Positions 11,532 through 37,064 of a stretch of 64,000 bases of DNA are shown piece by piece. The DNA lies in NCBI GenBank assembly GCA_902627735.1, contig CACOKI010000005.1, forward strand, positions 1 to 64,000, written 5' to 3'. The position numbers and the translations under genes were made by a program. Position 1 is the stretch's first letter. Every line of letters begins with the position of its first letter. This DNA comes from an uncultured Pelagibacteraceae bacterium. GTDB lineage: Bacteria > Pseudomonadota > Alphaproteobacteria > Pelagibacterales > Pelagibacteraceae. The notes under the pieces were generated by a model, which was given only the letters and a program-made list of their open reading frames with translations, did no database searches and had not been told where the DNA came from.

Positions 11532-12098
11532 TTAAATTTTTTGTAAAATATGTTTAACACACTTTTTTATGCTTTTTTTATTAAAATTATTATTTATTAC
11601 AAAGTGAGATTTTTTTTTTTTAAAATCAAGTGATAGTTGAATATTTCGAAATTTTTTCGTTAATTTATAATTATAATTTTTTCTTTTTTTTAGTCTTTTT
11701 AACATCTCGCTTTTTTTACTTTTAACAAATACTAAAATATCACTTTTTTTATCTATTTTATTTTCCAATAAAAGCGGGATGTCTAAAATTACAAATTTTT
11801 TGTTTTTGTTTTTTTTTAAAAAAAAATTTAATCTTTTCTTAATTTCTAGATGCACAATTTTAATAATTGTTTTTAAATTTTGATGTTTATCCAGTATAGC
11901 TCTTGTAATATTTTCTTTATTAATTGAGGGTGTATCAAAATATTCTGGTAAAACTTTTCTTAATTTTAATAAAATTTTTTTATCTTTTTTATATAAATTA
12001 GCAACCTCCTGATCTGCATTAAACACAGGATAACCAAAGCATTTTGCTATGTATGATTTGCCTGATCCAATATCTCCTAAAATTCCAATTCTTTTCAT
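11532..12098 (-). CDS. coaE: dephospho-CoA kinase
   Basis: CoaE phosphorylates dephospho-CoA, the last step of coenzyme A synthesis. The 188-residue protein has the P-loop GDIGSGKS at residues 8-15, a NADQE motif that binds the acceptor, and an FVILDIPLLLE Walker-B-like strand. The composition is unusually lysine-rich, which reflects long A-runs in the gene. It overlaps aroE by one base. Confidence 0.94.
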   Translation of the reverse strand: MKRIGILGDIGSGKSYIAKCFGYPVFNADQEVANLYKKDKKILLKLRKVLPEYFDTPSINKENITRAILDKHQNLKTIIKIVHLEIKKRLNFFLKKNKNKKFVILDIPLLLENKIDKKSDILVFVKSKKSEMLKRLKKRKNYNYKLTKKFRNIQLSLDFKKKKSHFVINNNFNKKSIKKCVKHILQKI

Positions 12099-12889
12099 TA
12101 ATCTAAAATTTTATATACGCCCTCATCAATATTAGGATAAATGTTATGCCAAATTTTAAAAGAAGCAGCGGCCTGATAAATAAACATTTTTTTTCCATTT
12201 TCAGTCTTATTCCCCATTCCCTTAGCTTTTTTTAAAAAATTTGTCTCTTTTGGATTATAAATTACATCATAATAAAGTTTACCTTTCTCAACCTTTGAAA
12301 AATCTAAATTTATCTGATCTTTATTATCTAAACCTAGGCTAGTTGCATTAATGACCATGTCAAAATTAGGCACCTCTCCCCAATCAACTATTGATAAATC
12401 ATTAAAAATGTCTTTTAAACCCTCAGCTTTAGCTTTAGTTCTATTAGATATAATAATTTTTAATGCTTTCATCTTTTTTAAAGAAAATATAATAGATGGC
12501 ACCACTCCACCTGCGCCAAGAATCAAAATTTTTTTTCCTTTAACATCAAATTTTATATTTGTTAAAGAAAGCTGAAACCCATCCACATCTGTATTATGTC
12601 CTTTTACTTTATTATCATTCAGATAAATTGTATTTACCGATTGTGTATTTTCAGCCTCTAAACTTAATTCATCTAAATATGAAATAATTTCTTTTTTAAA
12701 TGGAACGGTTACATTTATTCCGTAAATCTCATTGGTTTTAACTCTTAAAATTAATTTTTCGAGATCATTACTATTTAATTTTTCTTTATCATAAGTTCCA
12801 TTAATACTATTTTTTTTTAGCCAATAATTGTGTAATTTGGGCGACAATGAATGACTTATAGGGTTTCCAATTACTAAAAATTTTTTCAT
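12098..12889 (-). CDS. aroE: shikimate dehydrogenase
   Basis: AroE reduces 3-dehydroshikimate with NADPH in aromatic amino acid synthesis. The 263-residue protein has the shikimate-binding NPISHSLSPKLHN (near residues 9-21) and NVTVPFK with the catalytic Lys (near residues 59-65). The nucleotide-binding motif GAGGVVPS follows, and NRT is present for NADP preference. Neighbours coaE, dnaQ and maf are the usual alphaproteobacterial companions next to the origin. Confidence 0.96.
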   Translation of the reverse strand: MKKFLVIGNPISHSLSPKLHNYWLKKNSINGTYDKEKLNSNDLEKLILRVKTNEIYGINVTVPFKKEIISYLDELSLEAENTQSVNTIYLNDNKVKGHNTDVDGFQLSLTNIKFDVKGKKILILGAGGVVPSIIFSLKKMKALKIIISNRTKAKAEGLKDIFNDLSIVDWGEVPNFDMVINATSLGLDNKDQINLDFSKVEKGKLYYDVIYNPKETNFLKKAKGMGNKTENGKKMFIYQAAASFKIWHNIYPNIDEGVYKILD

Positions 12890-12891
12890 CT

Positions 12892-13476
12892 TTATTTGTA
12901 ATTTTTTAGATATTCCTTAATCATTTTTATGGGAAGTCCCATTATAGTATTTTCATCTCCTTCAATATATGCAAATAATTTTTTTCCCTCACCTTCAATT
13001 TGGTAAACATTATAAGCATATAGTGCTTGATCTGATATTTTGGTTAAATATTTTTTCAACTCTTCATTGCTAAATTCTTTCATTTTTAAAACAGCTTTAT
13101 CTGTGTAATTCCAAATCATTTTTCCATTTTTAGAAATGCATACAGAACTAACAAGATTATGTTTTTTTCCATTCAATTTTTTTAAAATATCCAATGCTTC
13201 TTCTCTGTTTCTAGGTTTAGATATAAGTTCACCTTCTAGGTCTATTACACTGTCAGCTCCTAATACAAGGATATCAAAATTTTTTAAACTTACTTTGTTA
13301 GCTTTCAATTCAGCTAAATTTTTTGATATAATTGTTGGCGTTGCTCTTTCTTTTAACAAGCTTTCTTTAACAAAATCCTCATCAACATTTGAAGGCTCAA
13401 CTTTATTTAATATCTCATTTTTATCAAGTATCTCTTTTCTTACTTTACTTTTAGAAGCAAGGATTATTTCAACCAT
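12892..13476 (-). CDS. maf: Maf-family nucleotide pyrophosphatase
   Basis: Maf proteins hydrolyse non-canonical nucleoside triphosphates and are linked to septum control. I use the ATG at 13476 (194 residues) because MVEIILASKSKVRKEIL is the normal Maf N terminus; an in-frame TTG at 13494 would add six residues. Conserved ASKSKVRKE, a GADSVI segment and the KPRNREEA motif are visible. The start overlaps the end of the PPDK regulator gene by eight bases (ATGGTTGA). Confidence 0.92.
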   Translation of the reverse strand: MVEIILASKSKVRKEILDKNEILNKVEPSNVDEDFVKESLLKERATPTIISKNLAELKANKVSLKNFDILVLGADSVIDLEGELISKPRNREEALDILKKLNGKKHNLVSSVCISKNGKMIWNYTDKAVLKMKEFSNEELKKYLTKISDQALYAYNVYQIEGEGKKLFAYIEGDENTIMGLPIKMIKEYLKNYK

Positions 13477-14293
13477 TTTTTTTATATATCTCAAGAATTT
13501 TTATTATTGAAGCAGCTGTTTCTTCTACGGATTTTCTTGTTACATCAATCATAGGCCATTTATATTTTTTAAAAGTATTTTTAGCTTCTTCAACTTCTTT
13601 TTTTACTTTTTCTAGATCTGTATATGATTTGTTTTCAGTTTCTTTCAATGAATTCATTCTATTTTTTCTTATTTCACTTAATCTTTCAGCTTCTGTGCTC
13701 AAACCCACAACACATAAACTTTGAGGGTTTTCTTTTAAAAAGACTGGAATTGAATTCTCATTAATTAAAGGAATATTTGAAGTTTTAAACCCTTTGTTTG
13801 CTAAATAAATGGAAGTTGGAGTTTTGCTAGTTCTGCTGACTCCTAATAATATTATATCAGATTTTTCAATTTCTTTTACAAGATTTCCATCATCATGATT
13901 CATTGTAAATTGAATTGCTTCAATTCTTTTGTAATATTCTTCATTTAAAACATGTTGACCACTTGGTTGATGTGATGCTTTCTGATTTAATAGTTTAGAG
14001 AAACTCAAAATTAAATCTCCCAAAACTCCAAAACAAGGTATTCTTTTATCGCTGCTTGTGTTTGCTAAATATTTGGCTAAGTTGCTATCTACAATTGAGT
14101 ATAAAATTATAGAATTTGTATTTTTTTCTGCATCTGACAAAATTTTTAAGATCTGGTTTTCTGTTCGAGTAAAAGAGAACGTATGTACATTATATTCAAT
14201 ATTTTGAAATTGAGCTTTAATAGCAAGAAATATCCTATCAAGAGTTTCACCTGTAGAGTCCGAAATCAAATATATTTGATAAATATTATTCAT
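13469..14293 (-). CDS. pyruvate phosphate dikinase regulatory protein (DUF299 family, kinase/pyrophosphorylase)
   Basis: This family reversibly phosphorylates a Thr of pyruvate phosphate dikinase or PEP synthase to switch it off and on. The 274-residue protein has the N-terminal LISDSTGETL motif (residues 9-18) and the P-loop-like GVSRTSKTPT at residues 151-160. Both are diagnostic. In Caulobacter and Rickettsia the same gene (RP001/duf299) flanks the chromosomal origin opposite hemE, which is exactly its position here. Confidence 0.94.
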   Translation of the reverse strand: MNNIYQIYLISDSTGETLDRIFLAIKAQFQNIEYNVHTFSFTRTENQILKILSDAEKNTNSIILYSIVDSNLAKYLANTSSDKRIPCFGVLGDLILSFSKLLNQKASHQPSGQHVLNEEYYKRIEAIQFTMNHDDGNLVKEIEKSDIILLGVSRTSKTPTSIYLANKGFKTSNIPLINENSIPVFLKENPQSLCVVGLSTEAERLSEIRKNRMNSLKETENKSYTDLEKVKKEVEEAKNTFKKYKWPMIDVTRKSVEETAASIIKILEIYKKNG

Positions 14294-14573
14294 GTATTAA
14301 TTGTTAATAACTTTGTATTATTTAAATCATATTAAGTATTTTTAAAGTTTTAAAATTTATATTGTAAAACTAGGTTTTTATTAACATTATAAAACATGTG
14401 AATATAGTTTTTCACATTTTAAACAATTCATACATTGGCTCAATTTTACCTATTTATTTGAGTGTTTTTTGATACTAAATGTTAATAATTAGTTTAAAAA
14501 ATGTTAATTAAATTTAGTCCTCATTATTCACAAGCTATACTACAATTACAATTAATTATATTTAATTATTATT
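14294..14573. other. probable chromosomal replication origin (oriC)
   Basis: This is the longest gene-free gap in the window, at about 16% G+C by hand count. It holds three DnaA-box-like 9-mers: TTATTCACA at 14524-14532 (plus, one mismatch to TTATCCACA), TTTTTCACA at 14408-14416 (plus), and ATATTCACA on the minus strand at 14397-14405. The last two form an inverted repeat TGTGAA-8 bp-TTCACA. The gap lies between the DUF299 gene and hemE, where Cori of Caulobacter lies. Genes run outward on both sides, and parS and parAB are about 9 kb away. The hemE and DUF299 promoters must also be here. The call is inference from position and composition; no strand-skew calculation was done. Confidence 0.7.
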
Positions 14574-15575
14574 ATGTCTCCTATTCAAGAAGTAATTATT
14601 AATAAAAAAACAGATTTAAATCCTATATGGATTATGAGACAAGCTGGAAGGTATTTACCTGAATTTCGTGAGATAAGAGCAAATAATCCAGATTTTATAA
14701 AACTTTGTTTAAATCATAAACTTTCATCCGAGATTACACTTCAACCACTTAAGAGATATGATTTTGATGCTGCGATAATCTTTTCAGATATCTTAATGGT
14801 ACCATATGGGTTAAACCAAAAAGTTGAATTTAAAAAAAATTTTGGGCCACTTTTAGGAGATTTAAATTTAGATAATGCTTCATCAATGCAAGAAAATAAC
14901 TTTACAGAGAAACTTAAGCCTGTTTATAAAGCCTTAGAAATAGTAAGTAACAATAATTTAACATCGAATAAAAGCACCATAGGTTTTGTTGGCGCACCTT
15001 GGACCTTAATGGTTTATATGATAAACAAACAATCTCCCAAGCTGAAGCTAAAAAAAAATTTTTTCGATGATGAGTTATTAATTAAAAAGATTTTATTAAT
15101 TTTGGAAAAATTTCTAAAAATTCATATCAAAAATCAAGTAGATAGTGGTGCTCAAATTATTCAAATTTTCGATAGTTGGGCAGGACTATTAGAAGAAAAG
15201 GATTTACCATATTATATATATAACCCAACATTAAATCTGGTTAAATTTATTCAATCTTTGAATACACCTGTCATATGTTTTCCAAGAAATATTAAGGATT
15301 ATAAAAAATATTGTGATTTTATAAAACCTGACGCAATTTGTATTGATTATGAGATTGATCCACTAACAATTAGAAAAGATATAAAAATACCTATTCAAGG
15401 AGGAATGGACCCAAAGATTTTATTAACTGATAAGGAAAATATTAAAAAAGAGGCAAAAAGATACCTAGATATATTTAAAGATCATCCTTATATTTTTAAC
15501 TTAGGACATGGTGTCCTACCAGAGACAGACCCTGGTATGATGGAATACTTGGTAAAAACAGTAAAAGATTATTAA
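14574..15575 (+). CDS. hemE: uroporphyrinogen decarboxylase
   Basis: HemE decarboxylates the four acetate side chains of uroporphyrinogen III to give coproporphyrinogen III. The 333-residue protein has the signature PIWIMRQAGRYLPEFREIR near residues 17-35, with the substrate-binding Arg residues. The FSDIL motif and the C-terminal NLGHGV segment are also present. It starts the plus-strand heme run hemE-hemH-hemG and borders the proposed origin. Confidence 0.97.
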   Translation: MSPIQEVIINKKTDLNPIWIMRQAGRYLPEFREIRANNPDFIKLCLNHKLSSEITLQPLKRYDFDAAIIFSDILMVPYGLNQKVEFKKNFGPLLGDLNLDNASSMQENNFTEKLKPVYKALEIVSNNNLTSNKSTIGFVGAPWTLMVYMINKQSPKLKLKKNFFDDELLIKKILLILEKFLKIHIKNQVDSGAQIIQIFDSWAGLLEEKDLPYYIYNPTLNLVKFIQSLNTPVICFPRNIKDYKKYCDFIKPDAICIDYEIDPLTIRKDIKIPIQGGMDPKILLTDKENIKKEAKRYLDIFKDHPYIFNLGHGVLPETDPGMMEYLVKTVKDY

Positions 15576-15576
15576 T

Positions 15577-16689
15577 ATGATTTACACACACCCAAAAAGA
15601 AAAACAAAAGTTGTATTTGTACAACTAGGTTCACCATCTGAACCAACCACTAAAGCTTTAAGAAAATATCTTAGAAAATTTTTAGGAGATCCTAGGGTTA
15701 TTGATATTAATCCATGGCTTTGGAAAATAATCTTAAACTGTTTCGTGCTCCCCTTTAGACCACAAAAATCAGCCAAGCTTTACGCAAGAATTTGGGATGG
15801 AAAAAGTTTTCCATTAATTACTAACACCAGAGACTTTACAAAAAATGTTAGTGAGGAATTAAAAAAAATAGATCCCGAAGGATTTGTCGAGGTTAACCAT
15901 GCTTTTTTATTATCTCCCCCGTATGTAAATGAAGTTTATGATAGTTGGGAGGATGATTTGAAAAAAGGCGTTGGTGCAACAAAACTTCTTGTAATACCGA
16001 TGTTTCCACAATACTCCGAAAGCACAATAGCTTCAGGTATAGACGCTTTAGCAAAGGAACTATCTAAAAGAGTTAAAATACCAACGTTTGAGGTGATAAC
16101 AAATTTTCATAGAACACATGCATTTATAGATAATTCAGTTAACCAAGTTGATTTAAAATTAAATGAATTAACTAAACAAGGAAAAAAAATTGACAGTTTA
16201 ATAATAACTTTTCATGGAATGCAAAAGAGAAGAATTGTTAATAAGGGCGATGACTACTATCGTCATTGTTATGAAACGTTCTGTCTTATTACAAAAAATC
16301 TTAAAAATATAAAACCAGAACAATGCTTGATGAGTTTCCAAAGTCGTTTTGGATCTGAAGAATGGATAACACCTTATACTGAAGATGTAGTTAAAAAACT
16401 AATATTAGAGGGAAAAAAAGAAATAGCAATATATTCACCTAGCTTTGTTGCCGACTGTTTAGAGACAACAGATGAATTGGGTCATGAGCTGGTAAACGAA
16501 GCAAAAGAATTGGGTGGCAATATATACCCAGTGGAATGTTTAAATACTAATAAGAACTGGTGTAAAGATTTTGCAAAATATACTTTTACCCAAGCCGAGG
16601 GTTCTGCGCAGGATAAAGAGGATATAGAATATAAACTTGATAAAAAATATTATCAGGAGATGCCAAAACTAGAGATGAACAAATCATAA
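15577..16689 (+). CDS. hemH: ferrochelatase
   Basis: HemH inserts ferrous iron into protoporphyrin IX. The 370-residue protein has the catalytic His in LIITFHGMQKR (near residue 213) and the conserved YSPSFVADCLETTDELG segment with the second metal-site Glu residues. Length and motifs fit the bacterial membrane-associated type. It begins one base after the hemE stop and is followed by hemG at 9 bp, so the three are probably one transcript. Confidence 0.97.
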   Translation: MIYTHPKRKTKVVFVQLGSPSEPTTKALRKYLRKFLGDPRVIDINPWLWKIILNCFVLPFRPQKSAKLYARIWDGKSFPLITNTRDFTKNVSEELKKIDPEGFVEVNHAFLLSPPYVNEVYDSWEDDLKKGVGATKLLVIPMFPQYSESTIASGIDALAKELSKRVKIPTFEVITNFHRTHAFIDNSVNQVDLKLNELTKQGKKIDSLIITFHGMQKRRIVNKGDDYYRHCYETFCLITKNLKNIKPEQCLMSFQSRFGSEEWITPYTEDVVKKLILEGKKEIAIYSPSFVADCLETTDELGHELVNEAKELGGNIYPVECLNTNKNWCKDFAKYTFTQAEGSAQDKEDIEYKLDKKYYQEMPKLEMNKS

Positions 16690-16698
16690 CATTCTAAC

Positions 16699-17217
16699 AT
16701 GCATAGCACTTTAATAATTTATTCCAGTACAGATGGTCATACAGAAACTATTTGTAAGAGAATATCAAATTTTTTAGATAACAAGAATGAGATTAAAATT
16801 ATTGCTTTGAATGATGCTACAAAGCTTGATCTATCAATCTTTAATAAAATTATTATAGGTGCTAGTATTAGATACGGAAAACATTCTAAAAAACTTTATA
16901 AATTTATTACATTAAATAAAAAAGTATTAGATCAAAAACAAAGTATTTTTTTTTCAGTAAACGTAGTCGCTAGAAAATCAGAAAAAAATACTCCTGAAAC
17001 AAATCCTTATATTAAAAAATTTTTAAAAATTTCTAATTGGAGACCAAAAAAAATTGGAGTATTTGCTGGCAGAGTAGATTATCCAAATTATGGTTTTTTT
17101 GACAAATATGTTATTAAACTTATTATGTTTTTAACAAATGGTCCAACGGACACGTCCCAATCTTATGAATTTACAGATTGGTCAAAAGTTGATGAATTTG
17201 CAAAAGAATTAAGATAA
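16699..17217 (+). CDS. hemG: HemG-type protoporphyrinogen IX dehydrogenase (flavodoxin fold)
   Basis: HemG oxidises protoporphyrinogen IX with FMN and passes electrons to the quinone pool. The 172-residue flavodoxin-like protein has the FMN phosphate loop SSTDGHTETI (residues 9-18), an IIGASIRYGKH motif (near residue 53), and a C-terminal LTNGPTDTSQSYEFTDW segment, which is typical of HemG rather than of generic flavodoxins. It lies downstream of hemH, where the next heme enzyme is expected. In many Alphaproteobacteria the unrelated HemJ serves this step and lies near hemE and rho. Confidence 0.9.
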   Translation: MHSTLIIYSSTDGHTETICKRISNFLDNKNEIKIIALNDATKLDLSIFNKIIIGASIRYGKHSKKLYKFITLNKKVLDQKQSIFFSVNVVARKSEKNTPETNPYIKKFLKISNWRPKKIGVFAGRVDYPNYGFFDKYVIKLIMFLTNGPTDTSQSYEFTDWSKVDEFAKELR

Positions 17218-23579: not shown

Positions 23580-24226
23580 TGGATAATGCAATTTTAAATT
23601 CTTACTCAAAAATTTCCAATTTAAATGTTTCACGTGAAACTTGTAATGAGTTTGAAAGTCTAATTTCAATGATACAAGAAAAAAATAAGAAAATTAATAT
23701 AATTAGTAAGAAAATGTCTGAAAAAGAGGCTATTAGAGAACGACATATAATAGATTCAGCGCAAATAATTGATTTTGTTGATTTAAATTGCAATACAACC
23801 TCAGATTTAGGAACAGGTGGTGGAATGCCAGGCTTAATTATTGCCATCGTAATGAAACATATGAAAAATAGTATGAAAATTAATCTTTATGAAAAAAGCT
23901 ACCATAAATGTGTTTTCTTAAAAGAAGTTTCAAAAAAATTAAATTTGAACACTGAGGTTATTCACAAAGATATTTTTGAAATTAAAAATGTTGAGACTGG
24001 AACAATAATGTCGAGAGCTTTTAAACCGTTGCCAGTAATTCTTAATTTAGTAAATGAAAATTTTAAAAAATATAAAAACATAATTTTATTTATGGGAAAT
24101 TCAGGTAGAAAAATATTGAGTGAAACTCTCAAAGAGTGGGATTTGGATTATGAGGAAAAAAAAAGTTTAACTGATAATAATTCATTTATATTAAATATAA
24201 AAAAAATTAAAAATAAAATCTCATGA
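23579..24226 (+). CDS. rsmG: 16S rRNA (guanine-N7) methyltransferase RsmG (GidB)
   Basis: RsmG methylates N7 of G527 (E. coli numbering) in 16S rRNA using SAM. The 215-residue protein has the SAM-binding motif DLGTGGGMPGLIIAI near residues 80-94 and the ERHIIDS segment common to the family. The N-terminal residues NVSRETC (16-22) are encoded by the parS site described separately, so this stretch serves both protein and segregation. It overlaps parA by four bases (ATGA). Confidence 0.96.
   Translation: MDNAILNSYSKISNLNVSRETCNEFESLISMIQEKNKKINIISKKMSEKEAIRERHIIDSAQIIDFVDLNCNTTSDLGTGGGMPGLIIAIVMKHMKNSMKINLYEKSYHKCVFLKEVSKKLNLNTEVIHKDIFEIKNVETGTIMSRAFKPLPVILNLVNENFKKYKNIILFMGNSGRKILSETLKEWDLDYEEKKSLTDNNSFILNIKKIKNKIS
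23626..23641. other. parS: parS centromere-like ParB-binding site
   Basis: The 16-bp sequence TGTTTCACGTGAAACT differs only at its last base from the parS consensus, which ends in A, and its 14-bp core is a perfect palindrome. It lies within codons 16-21 of rsmG, about 0.6 kb before parA and 9 kb from the proposed oriC. ParB would load here and spread along the DNA. Placement in rsmG is known from other bacteria. Confidence 0.95.
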
Positions 24227-25017
24227 AAATTATTTCTATTATAAATCAAAAGGGTGGGGTCGGTAAAACGACAACAGTTATAAATTTAGCTTCAGCGTTA
24301 TCACAACAAGGTAAAAAAATATTAGTTATTGATCTTGACCCACAAGGAAATGCCACTACTGGATTAGGATTATCTAATATGGAACAATCAAATCAAACAA
24401 TTTACGGAATTCTTAATGGGATGATGTCAATTTCCGATGTAATAAAAAAAACAAAATTTGAAAATTTAGACTTGATAACATCAAATGTAGATTTATCTGG
24501 TTTAGAGGTTGAAACTGCAGGAGATAGTGATAGGGCTTTCATTTTAAAGACTAAATTAGCCGCATATTTGAATGATTCTAGAGCATTATATGATTATATC
24601 CTTATTGATTGTCCTCCCTCTTTGAGTTTATTGACAGTAATGGCTCTTGTGTCATCTAATTCTCTATTGGTGCCACTACAGACCGAGTTTTTTGCTTTAG
24701 AAGGGTTAACTCAATTAATGAAAACTATTGAAAGGATTAAAATTAATTTAAATCCTAATCTTGAGATACAAGGAATTTTATTAACAATGTATGATAAAAG
24801 AAATAAGTTATCTTCACAGGTTGAGCAAGAAGCAAGAGATTATTTTAAAGATAAAGTTTATCAAACAGTAATTCCGAGAAATGTCAGATTATCCGAAGCA
24901 CCATCTCATGGTGTTCCAGTGCTTGTTTATGATAAAAACTGTCCAGGCAGTAAATCTTATTATAGTTTTACTAATGAATTTATTAATCAAGAAGACAAAA
25001 TTGGGAGTGCCGCATAG
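24223..25017 (+). CDS. parA: chromosome-partitioning ATPase ParA (Soj)
   Basis: ParA binds DNA non-specifically in its ATP form and moves ParB-parS complexes apart. The 264-residue protein has the deviant Walker A KGGVGKTT at residues 10-17, with the signature first Lys. It also has LDPQGNATTG (Walker A') and the DYILIDCPPSL Walker B strand. The lack of an N-terminal helix-turn-helix marks it as the chromosomal Soj type. It is coupled to rsmG upstream and parB downstream. Confidence 0.97.
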   Translation: MKIISIINQKGGVGKTTTVINLASALSQQGKKILVIDLDPQGNATTGLGLSNMEQSNQTIYGILNGMMSISDVIKKTKFENLDLITSNVDLSGLEVETAGDSDRAFILKTKLAAYLNDSRALYDYILIDCPPSLSLLTVMALVSSNSLLVPLQTEFFALEGLTQLMKTIERIKINLNPNLEIQGILLTMYDKRNKLSSQVEQEARDYFKDKVYQTVIPRNVRLSEAPSHGVPVLVYDKNCPGSKSYYSFTNEFINQEDKIGSAA

Positions 25018-25862
25018 TGAATTCAAAAATTAGAAAAGGTTTAGGACGAGGATTATCCTCTTTAATTGGTGAAACTAAAATAGAAACAGCTACAAATAAA
25101 GCTCTAATTGGTGAGTTAAGCCCAAACAAATTTCAGCCAAGAAAAAATTTTGATGAAGAAAGCCTTAATGAGTTAACTAATTCTATCAAAGAAAGAGGCG
25201 TTATTCAGCCCATTATTGTAAGAAAATCTTCAGACAATAAAACAAAATTTGAAATTGTGGCTGGAGAGAGAAGATGGTTAGCGGCACAAAGAGCTAAACT
25301 TCATGAAGTTCCTATTGTTATTACCGATATTGATGATTTGAAATCCTTAGAATTTGCTATCGTTGAAAACGTTCAAAGAAATGATCTCAATCCTTTAGAG
25401 GAGGCTCAAGGTTATAAAAGGTTAGTAGATGAATTTTCATACGATCAAGAAAAAGTTTCTAAATTTATAGGAAAAAGCAGAAGTTATATAACTAACTCAC
25501 TCCGTTTGCTTACTTTACCTGAAGAAATTTTTAAAATGATTGAAAAAAAACAGTTAACCCCAGGACATGCTAAAATTTTAGTTGGATTAGAAAATGCAAT
25601 TTTTATTGCAAATAAAATAATTGAAAAAAAACTATCTGTTAGACAAGCTGAAAAATTTGTAAAAATATTTAAACCAAAAAAACATAATCTTCCTAAATCA
25701 AAAGATTTAAATATTAAAGACTTAGAAATGTCTATATCATCTAAGATTGGATTAAATATTGATATTCAAAATAAGAAAAATAATAAAGGTAAAATATCTA
25801 TAGAATACAAGGATTTAGATCAATTAAATAAAATTATAGAAATCTTAAAAAATAATTATTAA
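25017..25862 (+). CDS. parB: chromosome-partitioning protein ParB (Spo0J)
   Basis: ParB is a CTP-dependent DNA clamp that loads at parS. The 281-residue protein starts with GTG, overlapping the parA stop by one base. The N terminus RKGLGRGLSSLIGE is the usual ParA-contact region. The CTP-binding motifs GERRWLAAQRA and ENVQRNDLNPLEEA are intact, followed by the helix-turn-helix (about residues 145-185) and a C-terminal dimerisation segment. It ends directly against the convergent holA gene with no spacer. Confidence 0.97.
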   Translation: MNSKIRKGLGRGLSSLIGETKIETATNKALIGELSPNKFQPRKNFDEESLNELTNSIKERGVIQPIIVRKSSDNKTKFEIVAGERRWLAAQRAKLHEVPIVITDIDDLKSLEFAIVENVQRNDLNPLEEAQGYKRLVDEFSYDQEKVSKFIGKSRSYITNSLRLLTLPEEIFKMIEKKQLTPGHAKILVGLENAIFIANKIIEKKLSVRQAEKFVKIFKPKKHNLPKSKDLNIKDLEMSISSKIGLNIDIQNKKNNKGKISIEYKDLDQLNKIIEILKNNY

Positions 25863-36500: not shown

Positions 36501-37064
36501 ATGATTATTCAAAATTTATTAATTTATGATTTTGATGAATTATTTGAAATATTAATAGAAATTGAAAAAGAAATTAATTACAAAGTTTTAAAAATATCGG
36601 AAAAAGATTTATCTAAAATAGTTGAAAATTATGGTGAAAATTATCTTTTGATAACAAATAAAAAAAAAACTGAAATTAAAAATCAACTTTTGGTAGAAAA
36701 TAGACCAATTAAATTAAATAAATTAATAGAAAAAATTAATATTGCTTTTTTAAAATTAAACTTCAATCAGCAATCAGAGAAAAAAATAGGTAAATACTCA
36801 ATCGATATAAATTCAAGAGAGTTAAAATTTAATAAATCATCTTTAAAATTAACAGAAAAAGAATGTGATTTAATAATCTATCTATTTGAAGCAAAAAAAC
36901 CTATTTCAATTAAAAATTTACAATTGAGTGTATGGGGCCATCAATCAAAATTAGAAACCCATACAGTTGAAACTCATATTTATAGACTTAGAAAAAAAAT
37001 ATTAGAAACATTTAAAGATGAAAATTTTATTGTGAGTAAAAAAAATGGTTACAAGATTAATTAA
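36501..37064 (+). CDS. winged-helix (OmpR/PhoB-type) regulator with degenerate N-terminal domain
   Basis: A 187-residue protein whose C-terminal 90 residues form an OmpR-type winged helix. LTEKECDLIIYLFE is helix 1 and the region before the recognition helix; HTVETHIYRLRKKI is the recognition helix; VSKKNGYKIN is the wing. The N-terminal 90 residues have receiver-like spacing but I see no phospho-acceptor Asp in the usual setting, so it probably does not respond to a classical kinase. No sensor kinase gene is nearby. The ArfA-like gene overlaps its end. Confidence 0.82.
   Translation: MIIQNLLIYDFDELFEILIEIEKEINYKVLKISEKDLSKIVENYGENYLLITNKKKTEIKNQLLVENRPIKLNKLIEKINIAFLKLNFNQQSEKKIGKYSIDINSRELKFNKSSLKLTEKECDLIIYLFEAKKPISIKNLQLSVWGHQSKLETHTVETHIYRLRKKILETFKDENFIVSKKNGYKIN

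Follow-up and report, generated by a model that had tools for sequence, protein, structure and literature searches.

The 280-bp gap between a DUF299 gene and hemE at positions 14294 to 14573 is in all likelihood the chromosomal origin of replication (oriC) of this bacterium (probability about 0.93), as the initial annotation had proposed. The proposal is upheld by the gene context, which is that of alphaproteobacterial origins, by the conservation of an AT-rich cluster of DnaA-box-like sites, by a sequence model (R1) whose only strong match in the genome lies here, by a switch in GC skew at this site in complete relatives, and by the position of a nearby parS-like site. The best overall explanation, an oriC with the mechanism of DnaA loading and strand opening outlined below, is highly likely. 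The location is ordinary for the class and the type of origin already known; what the analysis adds is the conserved anatomy of the origin and a testable class-wide departure from the DnaA-trio consensus, and the gap supplies a conserved anchor.

Gene context and the DnaA-box cluster

The window, meaning the whole stretch of 64,000 nucleotides that was analysed, covers contig C5 from its start to 64 kb. The contig is 82,916 bp long and belongs to a 1.03-Mb genome assembled in 38 contigs with an estimated completeness of 88%. The best hemE match among named records (within the best 80 of 181 matches) shows 89% identity and comes from the Pelagibacteraceae; the nearest named records being of this family, the source is therefore a SAR11-like alphaproteobacterium. 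The gap and its boundary genes are as follows.

14294–14573, no strand: gap, very probable oriC; 280 bp, 16.4% G+C as against 27.9% in contig C5
13469–14293, minus strand: DUF299/COG1806 gene, left boundary, start at 14293; Pfam PF03618 (Kinase-PPPase), 298 bits
14574–15575, plus strand: hemE, right boundary, start at 14574; Pfam PF01208, 275 bits

The length of 280 bp and the G+C content of about 16% given earlier agree with these measurements, and the two genes run outward from the gap as described. The gene order by Pfam scan is maf-DUF299, gap, hemE-hemH-rho-mnmG, and some 65 kb separate the gap from dnaA (C5:79857-81266). DUF299 and hemE are adjacent in all 60 gaps compared within the genus, and a frame with the hemE motif RQAGR[YH]L is found within 1.5 kb in 30 of 30 loci of the class, these being the top 30 from 100 DUF299-bearing genomes. 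An Rfam scan of positions 12000–17000 gave no match reaching its gathering score. ARAGORN found no tRNA gene in window positions 1–64000.

The comparison with Caulobacter and Rickettsia made by the initial annotation is borne out by the available part of PMC1914354, where the origins of Caulobacter and R. prowazekii have the same boundary genes, hemE and COG1806. Caulobacter crescentus Cori and the predicted origins of Rickettsia and Wolbachia share with this gap the boundary genes, an AT-rich gap and several DnaA boxes, except that Wolbachia keeps hemE alone of the boundary pair. The gap here is shorter, 280 bp as against more than 400 bp in Caulobacter and R. prowazekii (PMC1914354, same part). 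Unlike Cori, it contains neither TTAA-N7-TTAA nor GANTC, and no CtrA was found among the proteins scanned (see below). The oriC of Candidatus Pelagibacter ubique HTCC1062 was 'manually identified' according to a figure legend in a 2014 paper (PMC4033161).

The DnaA-box-like sites of the gap are listed below, with the number of aligned gaps (of 60) that match TTATNMACA with at most one mismatch.

14302–14310, minus strand: box A, TTATTAACA; 44/60
14378–14386, plus strand: box B, TTATTAACA; 50/60
14397–14405, minus strand: box C, ATATTCACA, left half of an inverted repeat; 31/60
14408–14416, plus strand: TTTTTCACA, right half of the inverted repeat, non-conserved; box-like in 13/60
14480–14488, minus strand: box E, TTATTAACA, first of three tandem boxes; 42/60
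14491–14499, minus strand: box F, TTTTAAACT, degenerate in this genome; 29/60
14502–14510, minus strand: box G, TAATTAACA; 34/60
14524–14532, plus strand: box H, TTATTCACA; 56/60, and within one mismatch of TTATNCACA in 51/60

Three of these 9-mers had been noted before and are present as described: ATATTCACA at 14397–14405 (minus), TTTTTCACA at 14408–14416 (plus) and TTATTCACA at 14524–14532 (plus). Three further TTATTAACA sites, at 14302, 14378 and 14480, had been missed, and the description of the boxes as few does not stand, as seven positions are conserved, most of them TTATTAACA-like, with one (box F) degenerate in this genome. The inverted repeat TGTGAA-8 bp-TTCACA that had been pointed out exists here but is not conserved; such a repeat is present in one of the 60 aligned gaps. 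Boxes E, F and G share one orientation and are spaced at an 11-bp pitch.

The gap has six sites within one mismatch of TTATNCACA (mean of 0.99 in dinucleotide shuffles, with 0 of 500 reaching six) and four exact TTATNMACA sites (0.21 in shuffles). A rival gap with clustered boxes, which the initial annotation would have counted against an origin here, did not appear on the 82.9-kb contig: no other 280-bp segment, the dnaA region included, has more than three near-boxes, a count that covers one of 38 contigs in an assembly estimated to lack about 12% of the genome. There is no excess of sites within one mismatch of the box across the window (83 compared to 106 expected) and none of TTWTNCACA across the genome (131 compared to 121 for the reversed pattern); therefore, clustering alone carries the signal.

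Conservation, GC skew and parS in related genomes

A DUF299 protein search gave matches in 62 of 121 genomes, every one of the same genus. Sixty gaps were aligned, that of the window's genome included; G019 and G069 were left out since DUF299 is cut at a contig end. Gap length is about 261–292 bp in all 60, with lengths perhaps a few bases off in six loci (L021, L028, L036, L045, L049 and L052) where the DUF299 start was set at the match edge. No 9-mer window of the gap carries more information than box H (1.41 bits per column), which is followed by the other six conserved boxes (0.74–1.05), the 14408 site (0.43) and columns outside boxes (0.39), a comparison in which box positions were chosen post hoc from the alignment and the 60 genomes are close, non-independent relatives.

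R1, a sequence-only model of the right 105 bp built from the 60 gaps (the window's own sequence among them), matches 14472–14572 with an E value of 1.9e-15; the next match in the genome has an E value of 0.027. This second match (G000:C1:40677-40717) corresponds to the tandem-box part of the model and is either a chance match or a secondary DnaA site. Across the order, R1 matches 154 of 197 genomes at E <= 0.1 under stricter search filters; matches in the same genus are mostly strong and, outside it (other genera, family f2), mostly weak. Many of the matches outside the genus are probably due to chance, as are, probably, the weak and mostly partial matches in family f2 (E 0.001–0.1). No match was obtained in at least five genomes of the same genus and in 23 further genomes.

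Since the window's genome is too fragmented (38 contigs), GC skew was analysed in five complete genomes of the same genus by fitting sampled stretches with an origin and a terminus opposite it; of the five, only G012 is among the 60 genomes used for R1. The R1 site is a GC-skew switch in these five relatives: pooled skew is positive in the half circle after the site (weakly in the first tenth, +0.010) and negative in the other half. The R1 site was unbeaten by any grid point in G012 (269 points), G127 (292) and G130 (288), and ranked 35th of 240 in G122 and 37th of 262 in G126, where the best points were 118 and 124 kb off. The skew test suggested by the initial annotation thus favoured the site in three of five genomes and a point 118–124 kb away in the other two. 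Block-permutation P values at the R1 site in the five genomes are 0.0065, 0.0255, 0.0037, 0.0497 and 0.0057, and Fisher's combination over them is 2e-6, which assumes independence of genomes that are in fact related. Gene direction explains most of the skew (r = 0.95 in G012), and once this is corrected for, the residual that G012 shows at the site falls short of significance (P 0.105). When the terminus is left free, the G012 fit favours placing the origin at 134 kb. The skew profile of the window was rejected as evidence, since the sign change at 14 kb is only one of several.

One parS-like site accompanies the gap.

23626–23641, no strand: parS-like site TGTTTCACGTGAAACT, lying 9 kb from the gap in the reading frame that comes after mnmG

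The site is one mismatch from the parS consensus TGTTTCACGTGAAACA. The frame following mnmG is a putative rsmG, and the two frames at 24223–25862 (plus strand) are putative parA and parB genes. In many bacteria parS lies near the origin, and the par genes of Caulobacter are on the hemE side. A single site is weak evidence, since chance would give the window 0.63 such sites at a tolerance of three mismatches. In eight of eight genomes, however, parS-like sites with no more than one mismatch are confined to a distance of 6.8–9.6 kb from the R1 site, toward hemE; G128 carries a pair of them separated by 332 bp. With two mismatches, further sites turn up outside this region in four of the eight (G123, G126, G127 and G128), and the reversed parS pattern, used as a control at up to two mismatches, matches in two of the eight (G127 and G130).

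The divergent orientation of DUF299 and hemE, together with ten promoter-like matches in 14200–14700 (4.8 expected, sd 1.9), would suit a gap that is merely the shared regulatory region of the two genes, with promoters and leaders, and with boxes that are AT-rich noise or DnaA-controlled promoters. This is very improbable given the six near-boxes (0.99 in shuffles, 0/500), a skew switch and a nearby parS that are unexpected of a promoter, and four family-f2 loci that have maf instead of DUF299 and yet keep the hemE-side box and repeat. In many bacteria oriC adjoins dnaA, which here is found on contig C5 at a distance of about 65 kb, and an origin at that or another place could also account for the top skew point lying 118–124 kb off in two of five genomes. 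However, the other 280-bp segments of the contig, dnaA region included, hold at most three near-boxes as against six in the gap, and no point on the skew grid beats the R1 site in three of the five genomes, which makes an origin elsewhere very improbable.

A CtrA-controlled origin of the Caulobacter type is suggested by the common gene context and by the 11-bp pitch of the tandem boxes, which resembles TTAA-N7-TTAA, but is extremely improbable. The gap is without TTAA-N7-TTAA and without GANTC; the missing TTAA-N7-TTAA is not decisive because some other predicted origins of the type are also without it (PMC1914354, available part). Four OmpR-type proteins were scanned, three from the complete genome G012 (where four were found) and one from the window's genome (where three were found); all fell below the cut-off of the CtrA model, the best listed score being 133.5 of 350 bits with a model whose short name is RespRegCtrARhodob and which may not cover all CtrAs. 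Tandem boxes E–G as CtrA sites were rejected on the motif absence and these scores. Pelagibacter has been reported to be without ctrA (PMC2877005, in the part available), and in PMC3973325 the SAR11 clade is singled out, in a garbled wording ('do have'), as not following the conservation of CcrM.

A candidate unwinding element beside box H

On its hemE side, the oriC gap contains a repeat of three bases in a fixed position relative to box H.

14533–14536, no strand: 4-bp spacer from box H to the 3-base repeat; register kept in 51/60 gaps
14537–14554, minus strand: candidate DnaA-trio array, top strand ATA CTA CAA TTA CAA TTA, which is six 3'-NNT-5' on the bottom strand
14537–14573, no strand: putative unwinding region (DUE), with a strand bias of C versus G

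The top strand has A at 14539, 14542, 14545 and 14548 in 93, 100, 100 and 95% of the 60 gaps. At least four consecutive NNA follow box H at a spacer of 4 in 51 of 60 gaps, compared to 0, 0, 0, 3, 0, 3 and 1 of 60 at spacers of 0, 1, 2, 3, 5, 6 and 8; at a spacer of 7, which is the same register as 4, they are found in 41 of 60. From 14536 on, the top strands of the 60 gaps contain 227 C versus 21 G, and the rest of the gap 1169 C versus 1291 G. The arrangement shares with the basal unwinding system (BUS) of B. subtilis a DnaA box, a short spacer (4 bp here) and a 3-base repeat in one register (PMC8287927, part available), and box H with its 4-bp spacer lies inside the BUS limit of 16 bp between DnaA box and trios. 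It differs from the BUS in that the middle adenine is inconstant and the third base (T on the bottom strand) is the most constant. Box H and the 3-base repeat together probably form an unwinding element.

The trio rule as given in the available part of PMC8287927 calls for at least three consecutive NAN within 16 bp; after the window's box H the longest run is two. Such runs follow box H in the spacer-4 register in 26 of 60 gaps and in any register in 40 of 60. The rule was rejected as a detector: with any box, 59 of 60 genus gaps pass, as do 58 on the other strand and 52.5 in shuffles, and among class loci 11 of 30 pass, compared to 12 and 7.1. A cleaner array, CAACTACTACTACTA or CATAAACAACTACAA and similar, is found 2 bp past CACAGG in the four family-f2 loci (L185–L188), where the gap is bordered by maf and the hemE-side box and 3-base repeat are kept. 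A single-protein search found no DUF299 relative in family f2.

In the proposed mechanism, DnaA would load on boxes A–C, on the tandem boxes E-F-G, which are spaced by one helical turn, and on box H. A DnaA filament may then reach from box H across the 4-bp spacer to the bottom strand of the repeat at 14537–14554 and grip it as single-stranded DNA in three-base steps. The AT-rich stretch up to the hemE start codon would melt, and helicase would be loaded there. Control of the origin would rest on DnaA itself because no CtrA was found and the gap contains no GANTC.

The class-wide repeat and DnaA residue 187

The repeat was sought in the class in 30 loci, the highest-scoring ones from 100 genomes with a DUF299 match; the array counts that follow leave out L355 and L356 (genus g6, no hemE motif) and L341, L344 and L346 (same genus). 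Of the 30 class loci, 21 have a five-unit C-N-A array with a score of at least 8/10 on the hemE-sense strand (other strand, 2; shuffles, 2.9 with a maximum of 6), and nine loci reach a score of at least 9 (other strand, 0; shuffles, 0.2). The array is also found in 8 of 14 loci of the family's other genera (other strand, 0; shuffles, 0.7), in 10 of 11 of family f2 (0; 0.33) and in 13 of the 60 genus gaps (0; 2.0). The middle base of the array played no part in selection. In class arrays the top-strand middle base is A 0.30, C 0.38, G 0.02 and T 0.30 (background 0.24, 0.27, 0.25 and 0.24), so that 30% have adenine on the bottom strand; the corresponding f2 values are A 0.56 and T 0.44. In the genus the top-strand middle base is T in 0.62 (45 of 60 gaps, score of at least 7), by unit 1–5 0.95, 0.80, 0.62, 0.90 and 0.35.

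In B. subtilis, Asn187 of DnaA contacts the middle adenine, and G or T at this place impairs the origin, with C tolerated (PMC10721633, part available). Compared to the B. subtilis protein, the DnaA of this genome has Tyr for Asn187, Lys for Arg202 and Val for Ile190, with Ile193 and Glu228 unchanged. Residue 187 is Tyr in 27 of 29 class DnaAs (one Phe, one His) and Ala (16), Gln (12) or Thr (2) in 30 outside the class, with Gln in E. coli, and Lys replaces Arg202 in all 59. The class set is the best 30 of 143 genomes, of which 29 were usable (L394 gave none by pattern), and the outside set the best 30 of 150 genomes of a phylum sample. Since Asn187 is missing outside the class too, Tyr is not the sole departure.

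The correlation of Tyr187 with the middle base of the array suggests, from sequence comparison, a changed trio code. Tentatively, alphaproteobacteria including SAR11 may use a trio code of 3'-GNT-5' (3'-NNT-5' in SAR11), read by a Tyr187 DnaA, in which the outer G and T have taken over recognition from the middle adenine. In SAR11 an adenine in the middle position remains common, so this reading is weaker there. The published trio is 3'-GAT-5', and the part of PMC8287927 available voices the suspicion that trios without the middle adenine exist; the changed code, if true, would be an example. If the trio result holds, it ties a single DnaA residue, testably and across the class, to a single base in the repeat of the origin, and it would account for the poor performance of the middle-adenine rule as a detector there.

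The gap might instead be an origin whose repeat beside box H is no DnaA-trio but a hemE leader element or the site of another protein. Three observations fit this: the adenine in the middle of the trio, which Asn187 reads in Bacillus (PMC10721633, part available), is not constant, the array of the window stops 19 bp short of the hemE start, and 10 of the 21 class loci have no [CA]ACA in the 24 nt ahead of the array. Yet [CA]ACA is present there in the other 11, 8 of the 30 class loci have a DnaA box with at least three CNA no farther than 16 bp from it (other strand, 0; shuffles, 0.1), the 4-bp register behind a DnaA box is fixed in 51 of 60 gaps, and class arrays begin at no fixed distance from hemE (115–201 bp before the RQAGR codons), so that this alternative is judged unlikely.

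A literature search for DnaA-trio with Caulobacter or alphaproteobacteria, judged by titles, found no title on alphaproteobacterial DnaA-trios. In word-start searches of main texts, 'alphaproteobacteria' and 'Caulobacter' are absent from those of PMC8287927 and PMC10721633, and 'proteobacteria' and 'Caulobacter' from that of PMC6669920; one figure of PMC8287927 spans five proteobacterial classes. Trios are labelled by the Ori-Finder 2022 software (PMC10225481, part available).

Several minor observations concern single loci. An OmpR/PhoB-type DNA-binding domain is encoded at 36840–37055 of the window in a 189-aa frame, in which response-regulator models match mainly the C-terminal part. In the single-contig genome G121 (G121:C1, genus g6), DUF299 and hemE are far apart (140546 and 718082) and R1 has no match. 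Its hemE scores 188 bits, and that of G124 (also g6) 190 bits, compared to 253–306 in the others apart from one split gene; in G121 either the origin context is broken or hemE has been replaced. The split hemE (G225:C1:358209-359176) is in two overlapping pieces, one with two internal stops, and is either a broken gene or a sequencing error.
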